Part shown: positions 9,499 through 23,869 of the stretch, one piece after another
Numbering within the stretch: position 1 is the first letter of the stretch
Layout of the letters: each line of letters starts with the position of its first letter
Origin: a virus
Reading direction: 5' to 3' (one strand)
Virus record (IMG/VR): IMGVR_UViG_3300027911_000057
Location: 1 to 27,470 of that record
Length of the DNA stretch: 27,470 bases
Made by a program: the position numbers and the translations under genes
The notes under the pieces: model-generated
The model's database searches: none
Told to the model about the DNA's origin: nothing
What the model saw: the letters and a program-made list of their open reading frames with translations, nothing else

Positions 9499-10614
9499 CT
9501 AATGCGTGAACGTGGTCGCGTTGAGGAAGAACTCGATTTGCGTGAAGCCGAGTTGCGGCGTAGCAACGCAGGAGAACCCATCGTAGATCCCCGCCGCATA
9601 GTTGCTCGGGTTCGCAGCCGTGTACGCAGCGAACGAGGTCGCCGTGAACGTCGCCGACAGCAGCAGCCCGTAGGAGACGCCCGTCGATCCCATGTCGTCG
9701 AGCACGCCCAGAAGCTGATTGATCCCGAACTGATTGTAATAGAGCGGCGGATTCGAGTTCGAGCCGTTGATGATGGCGTTCGCCAGCCGAATCTGCGCCT
9801 GAATGAGAATCCAATCGACCGCGTACCAGAACATTAGCTGGTTGCCGTCCATCGTGGTCCCGTTCCGTAGGGTCGCCGTCGAGATGCCGCCCTCGGCACC
9901 GGAGAGGATCAGGTTCCCGTAGGAGGTCAGAATCGAGTTGATCGTCGAGACGTTGCTCGTGCCGCCCGTGGTGATGTACGCCCAGGGCGTGACGCCCGAG
10001 AGGAAGCGGAAGTTCATCGGTGCGGCCGGCGAGGCGATCTGCGGATTGTTCGCGAGGAACGCCGCAAAGGGGGCCGCCGCCTGAAACTCAGTCGATGCCG
10101 CAGTCGGGCTGTTGACGACGCAGACGGCCGACTTCGTGGTCGCGAGGTAGCTGCTGATGTTCGCCGAGGTCGTCGTGATGAAGAAGTAGGTCTTGCTCGT
10201 GGTCGAGCTATAGAGCGCCGCGAGCGTGTTCAGGTTCGATGAGGTCGTCGTATCCCACGTTGCCGGCACGAGGTAGGCGTAGAAGACCTGCGGGACGAGG
10301 TTCGCGGCGATCCAGGTCGTCAGCGCGGTGATGCCGGCCGATGCGGACCCTTGCGCGCCAAGCTCGAGCACGTAGACGCCGATGTTCAGGTTCTGGGCGA
10401 AGAATGTCGCGCCCATCTTGGTCAACTCGGCGAAGTTCCCGGTTGCCGAGAGCGCCGCGAGTAGTCCGGCCTGCGTCGAGTAGAAGGCGTAGGTCCCCGT
10501 GGATTGCGTCGTGCCGCCGACCGAGACGAAGCATCCGCTTTGCTGCAGCGTCGAGACGGTCGGCGCCGTGGTAACGGTCGCGGAGACTTGGACGATCTGT
10601 GAGGTCAGCGCCAT
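9499..10614 (-). CDS. Tail sheath protein
   Basis: A 371-aa protein placed before the tube gene. Its segments follow the sheath pattern of small contractile phages of the DUF3383-like type: an early SGCFVSVGGTTQSTGTYAFY, then a 'FFAQNLNIGVYVLEL' stretch, a middle FRFLSGVTPWAYITTGG, and a C-terminal domain with FWYAVDWILIQAQIRLANAI and GINQLLGVLD followed by a final beta strand (QLGFTQIEFFLNA). The last part matches the C-terminal sheath domain that binds the neighbouring ring. 371 aa is compact for a sheath, with few insertions. The ATG has GGAG at 8 nt spacing. The sheath-tube order makes the assignment likely. It shows that the tail is contractile. Confidence 0.75.
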   Translation of the reverse strand: MALTSQIVQVSATVTTAPTVSTLQQSGCFVSVGGTTQSTGTYAFYSTQAGLLAALSATGNFAELTKMGATFFAQNLNIGVYVLELGAQGSASAGITALTTWIAANLVPQVFYAYLVPATWDTTTSSNLNTLAALYSSTTSKTYFFITTTSANISSYLATTKSAVCVVNSPTAASTEFQAAAPFAAFLANNPQIASPAAPMNFRFLSGVTPWAYITTGGTSNVSTINSILTSYGNLILSGAEGGISTATLRNGTTMDGNQLMFWYAVDWILIQAQIRLANAIINGSNSNPPLYYNQFGINQLLGVLDDMGSTGVSYGLLLSATFTATSFAAYTAANPSNYAAGIYDGFSCVATPQLGFTQIEFFLNATTFTH

Positions 10615-10648
10615 GTGTTAGGCTCCGATGCCGGGCGGCGAGGGATGT

Positions 10649-10948
10649 TTAGGCGTAGCCGACGCTGCAGGTCGTGTTCGCGTCCGAGATATAGACGAGC
10701 CCGTTGAAGAACGCGATGGGCAAGCCCGCATCCGAACCGCCGACGAACGTGGCCGTCCAGATCAGGTTTGCCGGGCCGGCGCCCGCGATCGTCGCGGAAT
10801 CGTAGAAGTTCCCGCCGATGCCGCCCAGGGTGAAGGTATTCACGCACCAGAGCGTGCCCGCGCTCGATTTGATGACGGTCGGGCTGTTCAGATTGAGGGC
10901 GGTCGCGTTCCCGCCCGGTCGGGGGCCTGCCGGATTCTGAATGGCGAT
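10649..10948 (-). CDS. Small virion-type protein (99 aa), probable ATC start
   Basis: The only standard start in this frame is a GTG at 10843, giving 64 aa with no good ribosome site. The frame is open well upstream. At 10948 an ATC codon follows a near-perfect Shine-Dalgarno AAGGAGG at 8 nt spacing, and the added residues (AIQNPAGPRPGGNATALNLN) read as a normal protein beginning. No ATG, GTG or TTG lies in this stretch. The complete protein (TVIKSSAGTLWCVNTF, then FVGGSDAGLPIAFFNGLVYI, CSVGYA) resembles a widespread small phage protein with 'VIK.s.G.l..v', 'iyD' and 'NGl.v' elements, proposed to be virion-associated. Non-standard starts are rare, so an error at this base is possible. Confidence 0.6.
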   Translation of the reverse strand: MAIQNPAGPRPGGNATALNLNSPTVIKSSAGTLWCVNTFTLGGIGGNFYDSATIAGAGPANLIWTATFVGGSDAGLPIAFFNGLVYISDANTTCSVGYA

Positions 10949-11016
10949 TTTGGGTGCCTCCTTCGCGGACGGGGGAATGACGTTCGGTTCGTCTCGTTCT
11001 TGCTTGGCCCCTGGCC

Positions 11017-11406
11017 CTACGGCTTGAGGTACATCGCGTAGACCGTCACGCCCGAAGCCGAGCCGGTGTTGCCGCCCGCCGTCGTCGTCGATTGGACCGC
11101 GATCCCATTCGTGAAGTAGAGGCCCGCCATCGGCAGCATGATGGACGCCGTAGACGTTCCCGCGACGAAGAGTTGCTGATCCGGGATGGTGGTCCCGAGC
11201 GTGATGTTGGCGACCAGCGCATCGAAGACCTGAACGAACGCTGCGGTCGATGCCTGCGTATTGATCGCGTAGAGCCCGAAGAGCCGGGCCGTCGAGTTCG
11301 CGACCGTCTGAATCGCCCCGGTCCCGAGATTGACGAAGTTGATCTTGGAGGCCGGCGTCCCGTCAAACTGCAGGGGCACCCAGGTCGCGGGGAATTGTGA
11401 GGCCAT
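11017..11406 (-). CDS. Small structural-type protein, unknown function
   Basis: A 129-aa protein, unrecognised by name. Composition is Ala/Thr/Gly/Ser rich with alternating hydrophobic residues and no long helix or signal peptide, as in beta-rich virion proteins. Elements are WVPLQFDGTPASKINFVNLG, STARLFGLYAINTQAST, LPMAGLYFTNGIAVQST and VTVYAMYLKP. The C-terminal 'GLYFTNGI.V' followed by 'VTVYAMYL' is shared in style with the following 99-aa gene and may indicate a common small jelly-roll type fold; I cannot prove this. The ATG has only a weak AAAGG close by and comes 22 nt after the terminator hairpin. It may be a decoration or neck protein. Confidence 0.6.
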   Translation of the reverse strand: MASQFPATWVPLQFDGTPASKINFVNLGTGAIQTVANSTARLFGLYAINTQASTAAFVQVFDALVANITLGTTIPDQQLFVAGTSTASIMLPMAGLYFTNGIAVQSTTTAGGNTGSASGVTVYAMYLKP

Positions 11407-11427
11407 GAGCCTTTGTTCGCCCTGGAA

Positions 11428-11460
11428 AGCAAAGAGCCCCCGCGTGAAGCGGAGGCCCTT
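11428..11460 (-). terminator. Intrinsic terminator (attenuator) after 214-aa paralog
   Basis: On the minus strand, AAGGGCCTCCGC pairs with GCGGGGGCTCTT (12 bp including two G-U pairs) around a 5-nt loop, followed by a short T-rich stretch (TTTGCTTT). It lies just after the stop at 11481 and only about 22 nt before the next ATG. There is no room for a new promoter, so downstream genes, including the sheath, would depend on read-through. Confidence 0.72.
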
Positions 11461-11480
11461 CGGCTGACCCCGGTCGAGTC

Positions 11481-12125
11481 TTAGATCGGAACCTCGGTCC
11501 AGACGTAGCTGAACAGGAGCGAGGACGCCGTGCCGGCGCCCGTGCCGTAGAAGGCGCAGGCCGAACCCGGCTGGAGGATGAGCCCGCCCTGGAGATCGAT
11601 CGGGCCGATGCCCGAGGAGGTCTGCGTGGTCAGGGCGCCGGTCCCGAACGAGCCGATGACGCGCGCGAGGATGGGCGTGGACTGCAGGGTCACCGAGGCC
11701 GAGGAGTAGAGCACGCCGCTGGCCGCCGGGCCGAACGGGAGCGCCGGCTGCGAGGCCACGACGGTCAGGGTGCCGGCGATCGCGACCGACGCCGACGACG
11801 CGATCATGAGGCCCATGATCGAGGCGTTCGTCTGGGCGACGAGCAGGCCGATGGAGACGGAGCGCACGACGAGGTTCTTCGTGTTGCCGATCGGGTTGCT
11901 CAGGATGAGCCCGCCGGTCGCGGTCGCCGTGAGGCCGGTCTGCAGCGCGGTCGCTACGACGGCCTGGTTGGCGCCCCAGAACGACTGCCCGCGGTATGCG
12001 GCTTCGTACTGCGGCCCGTAGAGTTCGTCGGTGATGAGTTGGTTGACGTTGCCGGCGCGGAGGGCGACGGTGTTGGGGGCGGGCGAAGATACGGAGGGGG
12101 CCCCAACGACTGCGGAATCAGCCAT
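11481..12125 (-). CDS. Virion-type protein, paralog 2 (214 aa)
   Basis: A 214-aa protein clearly homologous to the 215-aa protein encoded about 1 kb upstream. Shared segments include YEAAYRG/YEATYRG, GANQAVV/GANQALV, TGLTAT.TGGL.LSN, QTNAS..GLM, and the C-terminal CAFYG/CAFYS, AGTASSL and W.EVP. No signal peptide, no membrane segment; Ala/Ser/Thr/Val-rich and likely beta. The ATG has AGGAGA at 6-7 nt spacing. It is followed by an intrinsic terminator, which suggests it is expressed strongly. A capsid decoration, fibre or tail-tube-associated role is possible, but no family was recognised. Confidence 0.72.
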   Translation of the reverse strand: MADSAVVGAPSVSSPAPNTVALRAGNVNQLITDELYGPQYEAAYRGQSFWGANQAVVATALQTGLTATATGGLILSNPIGNTKNLVVRSVSIGLLVAQTNASIMGLMIASSASVAIAGTLTVVASQPALPFGPAASGVLYSSASVTLQSTPILARVIGSFGTGALTTQTSSGIGPIDLQGGLILQPGSACAFYGTGAGTASSLLFSYVWTEVPI

Positions 12126-12217
12126 GCGAGAGTGTCTCCTTAGAGAGCGTCGGGGCCGACGATCAAAGCGCGTCTTCCCATGGGCAGGAGGTTCGGCGCG
12201 CCTGGCTCTCCGGTCCT

Positions 12218-12841
12218 TTAGGAGCCGAGCGGCGGCAGGGTGATATTGACCGTTCCGGAGATGGGCAACGTGAGATCCACTTCGCCCGAAATCGCGAGAG
12301 TGATACCGACAGTTCCGGAAATCGGCAGCGTGATGAGGATTTGCTCGGGCGGCTGTACGAATCCGACCGCAGCGACCGATTGGGCATCCTGCACCGTCGC
12401 AGCCGTGCCATGGATAACGGGGCCGCTATGCCCGCTGGCGTTGACGTGCTGGTCGTCTTGGCGCGTTGCTGCCGTGCCGAAGATGCGAACGAGGCCTGCC
12501 GCATTAACCCGCTGATGGTCCTGGACGGGATGCGCGGTCCCGATGATCCGGACAAGGCCCGAGGCCGAGACATGCTGGTCATCCTGCCGGGTCGATGCAG
12601 AACCACGAGCGCCGGATTTGCCGGTCGCATTGACCCGCTGGTCATCCTGCCTTGTTGCCCCGGTGCCGATGACCCGGACGAGCCCGGTCGCCGAGACGTG
12701 CTGGTCGTCCTGCCTCGTCGCGGCGGTTCCGCGTATCCCAGCCGTCCCCGTCGCGTTGACGCGCTGGTCGTCCTGAACGGTCGCGCCCGTTCCGGTGATC
12801 GTCGTCCCGGTCTGAGGGCGGAAGAGCAACAGCAGGGACAC
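12218..12841 (-). CDS. Repeat protein with seven ~21-residue and four ~10-residue repeats
   Basis: A 207-aa protein starting at GTG with AAGGAG 8 nt upstream. After a short hydrophobic N-terminus (MSLLLLFRPQTG) come seven repeats of about 21 residues (residues 17-165) with core G(T/S)xxTxQDDQ(R/H)V(N/S)A(T/S)G. From residue 170, ten-residue repeats of ITLPISGTVG type run to the end. The Gln-Asp-Asp-Gln core recurs almost perfectly. The pattern predicts a short-strand beta solenoid or stalk rather than a globular enzyme. It lies between the two paralogous 214/215-aa genes. The N-terminus could be a membrane-like anchor but is too short (about 6 residues) to span. I infer a fibre or spike-like virion part. 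I do not recognise a named family. Confidence 0.7.
   Translation of the reverse strand: MSLLLLFRPQTGTTITGTGATVQDDQRVNATGTAGIRGTAATRQDDQHVSATGLVRVIGTGATRQDDQRVNATGKSGARGSASTRQDDQHVSASGLVRIIGTAHPVQDHQRVNAAGLVRIFGTAATRQDDQHVNASGHSGPVIHGTAATVQDAQSVAAVGFVQPPEQILITLPISGTVGITLAISGEVDLTLPISGTVNITLPPLGS
12221..12334 (-). repeat. Four ~30-bp coding repeats (ITLPISGTVG type)
   Basis: The C-terminal 38 residues of the repeat protein are ITLPISGTVG, ITLAISGEVD, LTLPISGTVN and ITLPPLGS: three full and one truncated decapeptide repeats of alternating strand and turn. Confidence 0.75.
12347..12793 (-). repeat. Seven ~63-bp coding repeats with alternating dimer pattern
   Basis: The DNA encodes units of 21, 21, 21, 21, 21, 23 and 21 residues. 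The first six alternate between QR-type (units 1, 3 and 5) and QH-type (units 2, 4 and 6), so the copies likely grew by duplication of a 126-bp pair. The last unit is degenerate (QDAQSV). Confidence 0.75.
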
Positions 12842-12887
12842 GGCCGTTACTCCTTACGGTGACGCAGTGTTTCCTCGCGAAGGGGAG

Positions 12888-12917
12888 CCCGGCAGCAGAG
12901 AGGGTCCCGCTGCCGGG
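12888..12917 (-). other. Strong hairpin between 72-aa and repeat-protein genes
   Basis: CCCGGCAGC and GCTGCCGGG form a perfect 9-bp stem around a 12-nt loop just after the stop of the 72-aa gene. No T tract follows, so it is more likely an mRNA processing or stability element than a full intrinsic terminator. Confidence 0.5.
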
Positions 12918-12920
12918 AGC

Positions 12921-13139
12921 CTAGATGACGGCCTGGCCGAGCGCCGCCGACGCATACGCCCGGCAGTCGTCCGTGTTCCAATCCGTCCGGCCGGCGGAGC
13001 CAGCGAGAACGAGGAGTTCGCTCTCGTTGGCCGTCACCTGAACCGTGGTCGATGACGGGACCGCTCCGCCGATGTCAACGGTCACCGTCATCTGCACCTG
13101 CTGCTGCGCGAGCAAAAGCACCGTCTGCGTTAGCTTCAT
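12921..13139 (-). CDS. Small hypothetical protein (72 aa)
   Basis: A 72-aa protein with a very good ribosome site (GGAGG, 5 nt before the ATG). The N-terminus MKLTQTVLLLAQQQVQMTV is moderately hydrophobic but lacks a clear signal peptide. The middle VDIGGAVPSSTTVQVTANES looks like beta strands, and the end is WNTDDCRAYASAALGQAVI. Function is not recognised. It lies between paralog 1 and the repeat protein, so it may belong to the same structure. Confidence 0.55.
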   Translation of the reverse strand: MKLTQTVLLLAQQQVQMTVTVDIGGAVPSSTTVQVTANESELLVLAGSAGRTDWNTDDCRAYASAALGQAVI

Positions 13140-13173
13140 GGCATTCCTCCGTTCACGCTAGCAGCCAGAGGTC

Positions 13174-13821
13174 CTAGAGCGGAACCTCGATCCAGGACAT
13201 CGAGAAGATGAGCGAGGACGCGGTGCCCGCCGCGGACGAGTAGAACGCGCAGTAGCCGCCCGGAGGCAGGATGATGCTGCCTTCGAGATCCACGACGGTC
13301 AGGGTAGTCTGATCGACGGTCACGGCGCCGGTGCCGAGGAACCCGAGCACGCGCTTGAGCACCGGGGTCGTCGGAAGCGTGATGGACGCCGAGGACGCGA
13401 GGACGGCGTAGGGTGCGATACCCGAGCCCACGAGGTCCGAGGTTGGCGTGACGGAGGTCACCGTACCGGCAAGCGCCGTCGAGGACTGCCCGACCATCAG
13501 CCCGATGACCGAGGCGTTTGTCTGCACGAGTGCCGCGCCGTAGGCGACCTTGGTCAGCACGACGTTGACCGGGTTGCCGAAGGTGTTCGAGAGGACCAGG
13601 CCGCCCGTGTAGGTGGCGGTCAGGCCGGTGGCGATCGCCGTACCGACGAGAGCCTGGTTTGCTCCCGAGAACGCCATACCGCGGTAGGTCGCTTCGTAGT
13701 AGCGGGGTTCGAGTTCCGAGACGACGGCATCGCCCATGTTGCCCAGGCGAAGCGCGGGATTGGTGCCGGAACCGAGCGAGGTTTTGGTCGCGGTCGGCCC
13801 GACGTAGCCATTGATGATCAC
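13174..13821 (-). CDS. Virion-type protein, paralog 1 (215 aa)
   Basis: A 215-aa protein starting at GTG with AGGAGA about 5 nt upstream. It is homologous along almost the whole length to the 214-aa protein at 11481-12125, with matching segments YRGMAFSGANQALVGTAI, TGGLVLSN, VQTNASVIGLMV and AGTASSLIFSMSWIEVPL. It differs at the N-terminus (MIINGYVGPTATKTSLGSGT). No enzymatic motifs are visible. The presence of two diverged copies in one structural cluster suggests two components of one layer or heteromeric decorations. Function is unknown. Confidence 0.72.
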   Translation of the reverse strand: MIINGYVGPTATKTSLGSGTNPALRLGNMGDAVVSELEPRYYEATYRGMAFSGANQALVGTAIATGLTATYTGGLVLSNTFGNPVNVVLTKVAYGAALVQTNASVIGLMVGQSSTALAGTVTSVTPTSDLVGSGIAPYAVLASSASITLPTTPVLKRVLGFLGTGAVTVDQTTLTVVDLEGSIILPPGGYCAFYSSAAGTASSLIFSMSWIEVPL

Positions 13822-13830
13822 GGGTTTCTC

Positions 13831-15015
13831 CTAGTTGGCGACGGTGCTGAAGAAGGGGTCGTTTTCGAACGCGTCGGGACTGTCCAGCGATGTATCGCCG
13901 GTACGAAGCATGAAAATCTGTTGGTTCAAGACTCGCATTTGGGTGATGAGTCCGCCGATGAGTTGGGTGAGGCTCGCGCCTTCGTGCTGCGCGGTATCTT
14001 GTACGGCTTGGCTGGCGACGTTGGCGGGGTTAGAGTAGGGCGGAGCGGCCCCGAAGGTCCAGGTATTCGCGGCGCCGTCAGGCCCCGATTCGCTGCCGAT
14101 GACAACGCGCCCGGAGGTGTCGAGACGTAGATTGCGGATCAGGTTCCCAGGGTCCGTACCGCCAACCGTCACTGGGTAGTTTGATACCGCGTTGCCGGGC
14201 TGCGTTGCTCCATCGACGACGAGCGAACCGGTGACGATAGACCCAGCCACCGCATTGCCAGCGATGGACGTGAGATTAAATGGCTGCGTTGTCAGGCCGG
14301 TCTGATAACTCGTATAGAGAGTGAACGGCTGCGCGCGAAGATATGCGATGGCGCTACCGCCAGCAGCCGTTACCGTGATGCGAATGTATCGCGCCAGGCA
14401 TGGGAAGAGGTAGTTGTTGGATGCTCCGAGGGAGCCGTTGACCGCCGTTCCAATCGCAACCGACACACCAGCTAGTGAGCCGAAAGAGTAGGCCTGCGAA
14501 TTGGATGCGGAGATCGTGCAGTTCACCGACGCGCTCGTCGAGATCGAAAGCGATTCGTACCCGAGCGTGTCGATATCGAAAATCTGGCCAGCGGCCCCAA
14601 ACTTCATCGTGTATGGCCCAGCGCAATCGCTTTGGACGACTGCATTGTTCGCGTCTATCTTGGGCAAGCCGCCGATGATATTGACGTTAAACCCGAGCCC
14701 GCTTGTCGAGTCCATCGCGACTTCGAGCGGGTTTAGGTTCGCGAAGTCGCCGCTCGGATCACCCGAGATGAAGTTCGAGATGGGTTGGTCGCTCGACTGC
14801 GCGCCTTGCAGGTTGAAGTCACGCGTCTGAAGGTTGCCGATGCCGTCCGGGTCCGCATACATGGCCGAGCCATCGCTCTTGCCATGCGTCATCGTCTGGC
14901 GAATGCTCTGCCCCGTCGTCGCGATGGGCGGAGCGCCATTGACAAGCACGCCATCGACCGGAATATATAGCCCGGTCTGAGGGTCCTTGTAATAGACGCC
15001 AGTTTCAGTCGCCAT
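13831..15015 (-). CDS. Fibre- or decoration-like structural protein (394 aa)
   Basis: A 394-aa protein, beta-rich with many Ser/Thr/Gly/Asn. The N-terminal ETGVYYKDPQTGLYIPVDG resembles the first strand of fibre-type proteins. Middle segments are YESLSISTSASVNCTISASN and LFPCLARYIRITVTAAGGSA, with a lone Arg-rich strand, as in jelly-roll or sugar-binding beta-sandwich domains. The C-terminus is predicted helical (SLTQLIGGLITQMRVLNQQI), which could be an oligomerisation helix. It begins 3 nt after the previous stop with no Shine-Dalgarno, so it is probably translated by coupling. I infer a virion fibre or spike role; no named family was recognised. Confidence 0.62.
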   Translation of the reverse strand: MATETGVYYKDPQTGLYIPVDGVLVNGAPPIATTGQSIRQTMTHGKSDGSAMYADPDGIGNLQTRDFNLQGAQSSDQPISNFISGDPSGDFANLNPLEVAMDSTSGLGFNVNIIGGLPKIDANNAVVQSDCAGPYTMKFGAAGQIFDIDTLGYESLSISTSASVNCTISASNSQAYSFGSLAGVSVAIGTAVNGSLGASNNYLFPCLARYIRITVTAAGGSAIAYLRAQPFTLYTSYQTGLTTQPFNLTSIAGNAVAGSIVTGSLVVDGATQPGNAVSNYPVTVGGTDPGNLIRNLRLDTSGRVVIGSESGPDGAANTWTFGAAPPYSNPANVASQAVQDTAQHEGASLTQLIGGLITQMRVLNQQIFMLRTGDTSLDSPDAFENDPFFSTVAN

Positions 15016-15018
15016 GAA

Positions 15019-15234
15019 CTAGCGCGGCACCATGATCCGCTCGGTAGGCGACTGCACATCGACCGCAACGGCAGCCTTCGCCGTGAGGACGCTCGCCATG
15101 AGCGCAGCATCCTGCGGCGGCATGACCACGGTCAGCGTGTCGGGCTCGCCTGCGGCGGCCTCGAATGCCATGCGGACCACGATCTGCTTCGATGCGTTCG
15201 GATAGATGAGCAGGCCCTGAATCGTGCGTTCCAT
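15019..15234 (-). CDS. Small hypothetical protein (71 aa)
   Basis: A 71-aa protein whose ATG overlaps the preceding stop (TAATG), indicating coupling. It begins MERTIQGLLIYPNASKQIVV and contains EPDTLTVVMPPQDAALMASV, then AVDVQSPTERIMVPR. It is compact, soluble and without motifs. It may be a small capsid or tail accessory protein. Function is unknown. Confidence 0.6.
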   Translation of the reverse strand: MERTIQGLLIYPNASKQIVVRMAFEAAAGEPDTLTVVMPPQDAALMASVLTAKAAVAVDVQSPTERIMVPR

Positions 15235-15644
15235 TACGTCTCCGTTACCGTATGCGTGAAGCTGCTAAGAGATACCTGAGCGCCGCTCACGATCGAGGTC
15301 GTGTTCAGATTGATCCCAGCGCCCGAGGTTCCGACCGTTACGTCCATGACGACCGTTGCATGGTCGCTCTGGAAGATGCGTGCGAAGGTTGCCGTGCCTG
15401 TGTTGCCCGCGGTTCCGGCAGTGATCGCGTTCGCGGTGATGACGCTTGCGACTGCCGCCCCGAACGCCGTTGCGCTGAAAGTCAGCGAGGCGAGCAGCGT
15501 GTTTCCCGAAAGCGCTGTGTTCGCGTTGACCGGCTGCGTGCCGGAGTAAAAGTCGATGAAGCCGCTATTCATGAGCGGCGCGAGTGAACCGCCATTCGCC
15601 TCAGCGTTGGCTGCCGTGTCCGAGAGATTGGCAATCGTACTCAT
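15234..15644 (-). CDS. Phage structural-type protein (136 aa)
   Basis: A 136-aa protein with AAGGA 6 nt before the ATG. It matches a family seen in many phages with a pattern of IDFYSGTQPVNANTALSGNT, LLASLTFSATAFGAA, FARIFQSDHATVVMDVTVG and GAGINLNTTSIVSGAQVSLS. The family is found next to capsid/tail genes and has no proven enzymatic activity. It has a beta-rich 'I.Y.G.qP' start and a 'N.T.I..G..v.v.s' end. I infer a virion or assembly-linked role. Confidence 0.65.
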   Translation of the reverse strand: MSTIANLSDTAANAEANGGSLAPLMNSGFIDFYSGTQPVNANTALSGNTLLASLTFSATAFGAAVASVITANAITAGTAGNTGTATFARIFQSDHATVVMDVTVGTSGAGINLNTTSIVSGAQVSLSSFTHTVTET

Positions 15645-15653
15645 GGGCAGTCC

Positions 15654-15944
15654 TTAGAGGTGCGGGTAGACGAAGATGGTGCCGGCGGCCGAGGTGTAGG
15701 GTTTGGCCTGGCCGTTGCGGACTTCGAGTTGCAGACTCCATTCGCCACCGACCGTGAAGTCCGTTCCTGTCGTCGTGTAGGTCGCGGTCGATCCATCGGA
15801 CGAGACGGTCATCGGCGAGACGGGAACGGCCGCGGTCGCCGAATCCGAATATCCCGGCGCGATGAAGAGGCGACAGGTCGAGCCGGTGAGGTTGTACCCC
15901 CCGGCATTAACCACGATCTGCACGCCCGCATCTCCCGCCGTCAT
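15654..15944 (-). CDS. Ig-like domain protein (BppU N-terminal-like), 96 aa
   Basis: The coding frame is open upstream, but the ATG overlapping the preceding stop (ATGA, 15941-15944) is the natural start; the upstream part would overlap the 327-aa gene in another frame. The 96 residues form a single beta-sandwich: GDAGVQIVVNAGGYNLTGST, then RLFIAPGYSD, ATYTTTGTDF, GEWSLQLEVRNGQ and AAGTIFVYPHL. This corresponds to the BppU N-terminal/Ig-type domain common in phage baseplate and decoration proteins (T-x-x-d-L-t-G-x-t, w..Q.ev...G......g...i.V). It may bind another virion protein. Confidence 0.7.
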   Translation of the reverse strand: MTAGDAGVQIVVNAGGYNLTGSTCRLFIAPGYSDSATAAVPVSPMTVSSDGSTATYTTTGTDFTVGGEWSLQLEVRNGQAKPYTSAAGTIFVYPHL

Positions 15945-22831: not shown

Positions 22832-23869
22832 ATGGGCTACACTTACAGGGTGATTCGAGTCGTTTCTCTTTTCGCGGGCATCGGCGCGGCCGACCTCGGC
22901 CTGTATCGCGCTGCTGCGGACCTTGGCATCGACGTCGAGGTGGTCGCTGCCTACGATTCGTGGCCTGCCGCCGTCGCCGTCTACAACGCCAACCTCCCGC
23001 ACCCGGTCGCCCAGGTCGCCGACGTCAAGCAGATGCAGCGCAGCGATCTTCCGCCGCACGACCTCATCATCGGCGGACCGCCCTGCCAGCCGTTCTCGCT
23101 CGCGGGGAAGCGCCAGGGCCACGACGACCCGCGCAACTGCCTGCCCGACTTCCTGCGGCTCGCCGGTGATACGTCGTACCTCATGGAGAACGTCATGCCG
23201 CGGCTCGTCAACGCGCCGTTCTCCGTGAAGCTGAACGCCTTCGACTTCGGCGATGTGACGACGCGCAAGCGGTGGTTCTACTCGACGCACCTGCTGCACA
23301 TCATCGAGACGCCGGGGCCGCTGCGGTTCGGGGACATCCGCGACCACGAAGCGGACCGGCTCGCGCTGGGGCGACGCGGCACGGGCGCGGTGTATGGCGA
23401 CGGCGACGCCCTGGGAGGGCTGACTGCCCATGCCAGCGCGAAGATGGTCGCAGTCGGGCAGCGGGCCCACGGCTACAGCGACGGACGCGGCTGGAATCTC
23501 ATCGACGAGGCTGCGCTGCTCACAAGCGTTACATCGCATACGCACGACCAAAATCCGCAACCGCATGAGGCGCCGCTCAAGGTCGGACTACGCGGCCACT
23601 CGGCCTCGGCCTCGGCCTTCGAAGATGATGAACCCCTCGGCTCGCTCATCGCAAACTCCTGGCACGGCAACGAACTCTCGCGCCTCGGACCCACCGTCCG
23701 CTGCCCCTCGATCCTCGAAATGGCACGCGCTCACAGCATCCCCGACTCCTGGGATTGGGCCGGCGCCACCAAAACCGCTCGCGGCAAGATGATCGCGAAC
23801 TCCTGGCCGATCGGCATGGCGACGGCGGTATGCCGTGCGATGCTGCTGGCTATGGGCGGGGTGCGCTAA
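22832..23869 (+). CDS. Orphan DNA (cytosine-5-)-methyltransferase
   Basis: A 345-aa enzyme, the only plus-strand gene. It transfers methyl groups from S-adenosylmethionine to cytosine C5. Motif I (SLFAGIGAADLG, residues 12-23), motif IV with the catalytic Cys (GGPPCQPFS, 81-89, Cys85), motif VI (MENV, 118-121), motif VIII (TTRKRWF, 143-149), a motif IX-like SILEMARAHSIPDSW and a motif X-like GKMIANSWPIGMA are all present and in order. The region between VIII and IX (about 150-285) would be the target-recognition part; specificity unknown. No restriction enzyme partner is encoded nearby, so it likely protects the phage DNA or alters gene expression. Start may instead be GTG at 22850 (see -10 box). 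Its 3' end overlaps the convergent head gene by 20 nt. Confidence 0.9.
   Translation: MGYTYRVIRVVSLFAGIGAADLGLYRAAADLGIDVEVVAAYDSWPAAVAVYNANLPHPVAQVADVKQMQRSDLPPHDLIIGGPPCQPFSLAGKRQGHDDPRNCLPDFLRLAGDTSYLMENVMPRLVNAPFSVKLNAFDFGDVTTRKRWFYSTHLLHIIETPGPLRFGDIRDHEADRLALGRRGTGAVYGDGDALGGLTAHASAKMVAVGQRAHGYSDGRGWNLIDEAALLTSVTSHTHDQNPQPHEAPLKVGLRGHSASASAFEDDEPLGSLIANSWHGNELSRLGPTVRCPSILEMARAHSIPDSWDWAGATKTARGKMIANSWPIGMATAVCRAMLLAMGGVR
22838..22843 (+). promoter_or_regulatory. Candidate -10 box for the methyltransferase
   Basis: TACACT, preceded by GC, is a near-consensus -10 box. A poor -35 (TTCCCT) sits 17 nt upstream. Transcription would start near 22850, exactly at the in-frame GTG that could begin the methyltransferase, implying a leaderless mRNA. 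The ATG at 22832 would then be upstream of the transcript. Confidence 0.35.

Follow-up and report, generated by a model that had tools for sequence, protein, structure and literature searches.

The locus described here raises the question of what a short protein composed of two kinds of tandem repeats does in a tailed phage, and whether such repeats are peculiar to this virus. The window, that is, the whole stretch of 27,470 nucleotides that was analysed, corresponds to positions 1 to 27,470 of the IMG/VR record IMGVR_UViG_3300027911_000057, a virus record that includes genes for a tail sheath, a tape-measure-type protein and baseplate proteins. The repeat gene is located between the head (head-completion) genes and the tail sheath gene, all on one strand.

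Organization of the repeat gene and its product

The gene (12218-12841, minus strand) encodes a protein of 207 amino acids and starts with GTG, with a likely ribosome-binding site, AAGGAG (12850-12855, minus strand), 8 nt 5' of this codon. A seven-unit array occupies residues 17-165 (12347-12793, minus strand), with the units, all on the same strand, located at 12731-12793 (unit 1), 12668-12730 (unit 2), 12605-12667 (unit 3), 12542-12604 (unit 4), 12479-12541 (unit 5), 12416-12478 (unit 6) and 12347-12409 (unit 7). The spacing of the units is exactly 21 residues through unit 6 and 23 residues between units 6 and 7, owing to two extra residues after unit 6.

The first-pass annotation, made from the letters of this DNA and its open reading frames, had described seven repeats of about 21 residues with a QDDQ core, alternating between an R-type and an H-type. 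The number and period of the repeats are borne out: the protein contains five QxxQ pairs spaced by 21 residues, compared to a maximum of two across 20,000 shuffles, none of which gave the pattern, and Tandem Repeats Finder independently identified periods of 63 bp and 30 bp in the gene. The cores of units 1 to 7 are, in this order, QDDQR, QDDQH, QDDQR, QDDQH, QDHQR, QDDQH and QDAQS. Thus, the R/H alternation extends through units 1-6 but breaks down in unit 7, and the QDDQ core is exact in five of the seven units but replaced by QDHQ in unit 5 and by QDAQ in unit 7. The C-terminal region (residues 170-207; 12221-12334, minus strand) consists of a 10-residue repeat, in agreement with the original description, but the four supposed copies of ITLPISGTVG are in fact three full variant copies (ITLPISGTVG, ITLAISGEVD and LTLPISGTVN) followed by the truncated ITLPPLGS. 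The protein itself has neither a lectin domain nor any other binding domain.

A widespread family of 21-residue repeats

Repeats of the QDDQ type are also found in other phage proteins. A scan of viral contigs for two consecutive units yielded at least 119 stretches, and an array detector applied to the viral loci examined identified at least 75 array ORFs in at least 72 loci; 49 of the 75 array ORFs listed are distinct at 90% identity. The consensus derived from 569 distinct units is G-T-[LA]-[AS]-x-T-[QE]-A-x-[QDN]-T-L-x-A-[TS]-G-x-[VL]-x-[VYL]-x, or, in short form, G-T-x-x-x-T-[QE]-A-x-[QDN]-T-L-x-A-[ST]-G-x5. Conservation at positions 1, 7, 10, 14 and 16 is partly a matter of construction because these positions were used in detection, whereas the detection left T2, T6, A8 and T11 free. 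A family profile built without the window protein and without its nearest relative, the sister phage G001 (IMGVR_UViG_3300044838_000066), matches the window protein with a score of 90.0 bits, the best of 1,000 shuffles reaching 8.9; the match comprises four two-unit domains across residues 17-162. The repeat protein is a member of a widespread, unnamed phage family of 21-residue QxxQ/TExxD repeats. The earlier statement that it belongs to no named family holds for Pfam (best score 13.9 bits against a cut-off of 23.5) and NCBIfam (13.8 bits against 85), but other phages have the repeat too.

In the two bacterial classes sampled, arrays are rare, with one in 289 and one in 274 genomes. One of these two arrays adjoins a homologue of phrog_3758 (see below), which suggests that it is part of a prophage. 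Matches to a two-unit DNA pattern in bacterial genomes are mostly Q-rich, low-complexity proteins and were rejected as members of the QxxQ/TExxD family; a scan with the pattern TQADDT was likewise discarded as giving matches at chance level only. A tblastn search of named phages with the arrays of the window, G001, L028 and L025 produced no match, possibly due to the low-complexity filter, and the motif strings of the family were not found in the literature searched.

Modular architecture of the array proteins

The sister phage G001 encodes two array proteins with the family unit, of 350 and 425 amino acids, and its homologue of the repeat protein shows 50% identity over 158 residues (E 1e-33). 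Additionally, a neck-type protein of G001 carries one family unit at its N-terminus and a baseplate-type protein (phrog_8212) carries two, whereas the homologues of both proteins in the window lack units. A further, degenerate unit was considered for the C-terminal end of the phrog_6359 protein of G001 and rejected (1.1 bits). Across phages, the arrays are joined to different partner domains: in L117, a Laminin_G_3 domain is fused to the array, and an array protein of G001 ends in a fused C-terminal domain homologous to a separate 96-residue protein of the window (15654-15944, minus strand). The repeat gene is absent from the close relatives L013 and L014 and is therefore accessory. The number of units differs as well, from 12 to 29 among relatives that share an N-terminal domain (about 47-82% identity). 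The arrays are modular and vary in unit number between relatives. The prediction that the length of the array would differ between relatives is accordingly correct for distant ones.

At the same position in the relative L012 (7806-8969), there is a 387-residue protein in which another beta repeat (SATTxxTAKVxxLVSA...) makes up most of the sequence and precedes three QxxQ units. A short hydrophobic start is found at the N-terminus of array proteins from different phages, namely, MSLLLLF in the window protein and in the 350-residue protein of G001 (L005:5388) and VSLLLLL in L089:94. The array proteins of G001 and L012 have short beta ends that resemble the C-terminal decapeptide type, and the arrays of L025, L043, L056, L071, L089 and L265 end in short beta motifs of the type R/N-T-[VIL]-x-[VL]-P (e.g., NRTVLLPAEPRTILLEA), which are possibly the counterpart of the ITLPISGTVG repeats in the window protein.

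Linkage to phrog_3758 and the gene neighbourhood

About 2.4 kb upstream of the repeat gene, on the same strand, is a gene for a 136-residue protein of phrog_3758, annotated as 'virion structural protein' (15234-15644, minus strand; E 3e-29), the likely partner of the repeat protein; the gene for the 96-residue protein lies upstream of it. Among the matches listed, 26 non-redundant arrays had at least 3 kb of upstream sequence and were testable, and 23 of these have a same-strand phrog_3758 homologue nearby, which starts upstream of the array in 20 cases and downstream in three. No such homologue was detected near any of the 120 loci with bacterial matches of the same pattern scan. Among 13 sheath-related phages (the window, G001 and L012-L022, with limited flanks in L022), phrog_3758 is present only in the three that have arrays. 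The arrays are linked to phrog_3758. Furthermore, an LtfC-like or phrog_1084 beta-sandwich gene is found near at least seven array loci from three distinct phage types, the LtfC-like match being below the Pfam cut-off (20.9 versus 27 bits). Because LtfC holds the lateral fibres in phage DT57C, these neighbours suggest a fibre role for the arrays.

The reading that we prefer, at roughly an even chance, is that the repeat protein is an accessory stalk or fibre module of the virion of an uncultured contractile-tailed phage, with the phrog_3758 protein as its partner. The main competing explanation, which we consider possible but distinctly less probable, is a decoration protein, with the short array lying flat against the particle surface (head, collar or tail) and stabilizing the particle instead of projecting from it. 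The position of the gene between the head-completion and sheath genes, the small size of the protein and its lack of a binding domain are compatible with such a role, and phrog_3758 is classed under head and packaging; however, in named phages, phrog_3758 is located in tail or tail-tip regions, and relatives with up to about 29 units and lectin-like domains come closer to a projecting appendage.

Several other features of the neighbourhood deserve mention. The repeat gene is flanked by two genes (11481-12125 and 13174-13821) for proteins of about 215 residues each that match the same genes of G001 and L013 and, judging from these matches, appear to be paralogues; neither product matches a Pfam family. 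The region from the phrog_6359 gene to the sheath (9499-15944) is a variable cassette; the relatives L015, L017 and L018 each encode only one protein there, of about 100-120 residues. A gene that matches C-5 cytosine DNA methylase (PF00145, E 6e-29) is located at 22832-23869 on the plus strand, opposite to the structural operon.

Predicted structure of the array

AlphaFold produced a poor model from the single sequence (pLDDT 56), and the fold search with it was uninformative. With an alignment of 19 in-register rows, the confidence rose (pLDDT 70, pTM 0.64) and a regular beta structure was predicted in which every 21-residue turn contains three beta segments; this is a monomer prediction, from which a trimeric form is not distinguishable. 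The most likely fold of the array is a beta-solenoid with approximately one 21-residue turn per unit, in which the model confidence is moderate. The beta-solenoid stalk put forward in the first-pass annotation is thus the best structural guess, and the recurring beta pattern emerges once an alignment is supplied, but no significant Foldseek match accompanies it. In PDB, there was no match at E <= 0.001, and the weak ones were mostly beta-helices, with some functional amyloids; among viral models, the best matches were uncharacterised phage proteins (TM 0.63, E 4e-3), none at E <= 0.001. A search for solved chains matching the family profile found none.

A less favoured alternative is that the repeats form stacked beta sheets between chains, as in FapC or CsgA, or are largely disordered. 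The 21-residue repeats are rich in Q and N, the pLDDT is moderate, and fibrils of FapC and CsgA are among the weak Foldseek matches; however, these matches are not significant, and the predicted beta pattern is regular, intra-chain and gains confidence from the alignment, which makes this explanation rather improbable.

History of the array

It had also been proposed that the array grew by duplication of 126-bp pairs of units and that such DNA is prone to changes in copy number. Protein identity between units is 0.65 at lag 2 versus 0.55 at lag 1 (permutation p = 0.06), the excess at the DNA level has the same p value of 0.06, and units 1 and 3, as well as 2 and 4, are 81% identical in protein sequence. 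However, units 1 and 3 use the same codon at just 5 of their 17 identical residues, and the lag-2 signal is absent in 50 related arrays (0.488 versus 0.489), not all of which are independent; pair duplication would at best be an old event in units 1-4. Identity between units of the gene is 49-76% in DNA, exact direct repeats reach at most 15 bp, and the number of units is constant among near-identical genomes (21 in the L026 group), so that susceptibility to copy-number change finds no support on short time scales. Because the longest exact repeat is this short, an assembly artefact in the number of units is unlikely as well.

In sister phages, the N-terminus of a baseplate-type gene differs between two contigs (L002:4905-5055 and L003:1402-1605) by one exact 51-bp unit (RATQVSAFLESSASPHI) with 100% identical flanks, which is either a real copy-number change or an assembly collapse. 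Even with this case and the similarity of units 1/3 and 2/4 in its favour, the explanation that the array is a recent, pair-duplicated expansion of slippage-prone DNA with little structural meaning is highly improbable given the divergence of the units, their unshared codons, the missing lag-2 signal in related arrays and the constant unit counts.

A proposed role for the repeat protein

For the accessory stalk or fibre module, we make the following inferences about the solenoid fold of the array, the protein's presence in and attachment to the particle, and its part in adhesion. The seven units would wind into a beta-solenoid rod, about one turn per unit, with the conserved residues of positions 7 (Q/E) and 10 (Q/D/N) placed beside a turn, and the C-terminal 10-residue beta repeats would probably form a docking or capping end. 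Assembly on the particle likely involves the phrog_3758 protein as well, the two forming part of an appendage of the lateral or collar type. The array would serve as a modular spacer to which phages add lectin-like or other domains and in which they vary the number of units; single units are also put on further proteins of the virion. The protein would be expected to act as a non-essential aid to surface contact or adhesion. In a far more speculative extension, which we regard as improbable, the units would be interlocking rungs: neck-type and baseplate-type proteins that carry one or two terminal units, as those of G001 do, would offer surfaces for stacking, long array proteins would assemble onto these end to end, and several virion sites would share one composite fibre system made from a single 21-residue unit.

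With these results, an odd repeat protein can be recognised as a module that many environmental phages share and that Pfam and NCBIfam lack.

Comparison with known systems

Three PHROG families annotated as unknown function or virion structural protein (phrog_38872, phrog_8510 and phrog_34844) have profiles that match the arrays of L044, L117, gp7 of Curvibacter phage P26059A or the window, with phrog_34844 matching the window array itself (E 1e-4); none of them gives an account of the repeat or of how it folds and functions, and the majority of arrays have no PHROG match. The Ig-like domains of tailed-phage virion proteins (see PMC7602432, PMC6848219) are small beta modules that occur on different virion proteins and are optional between relatives. 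The array units are likewise optional additions to different virion proteins, but the Ig-like fold comprises about 90 residues compared to the 21-residue solenoid-type unit, and no Ig-like Pfam model matches the window protein or its relatives. The spread of a short repeat between virion proteins would thus parallel that of the Ig-like domains, with a much smaller building block.

In the T5-like phage DT57C, the lateral tail fibre system depends on LtfC as the collar protein that holds the fibres (PMC10713586), and it is genes resembling LtfC that are found near some of the array loci. An LtfC homologue was not found beside the repeat gene in the window, the 15654-15944 product having been rejected as LtfC-like (hhalign probability 5% against the LtfC-like set).

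A further parallel is the cultured Curvibacter phage P26059A, a siphovirus (PMC5964084), which carries a phrog_3758 gene (gp5) and, near it, as in the window, an array of the same family in its TExxD variant (gp7; KY981271, 6296-7480). Unlike the window protein, gp7 is 394 residues long, carries E rather than Q at position 7 and is annotated only as a hypothetical protein. The link to phrog_3758 points to a shared, testable role for two poorly annotated proteins, both of which are present in this cultured phage.
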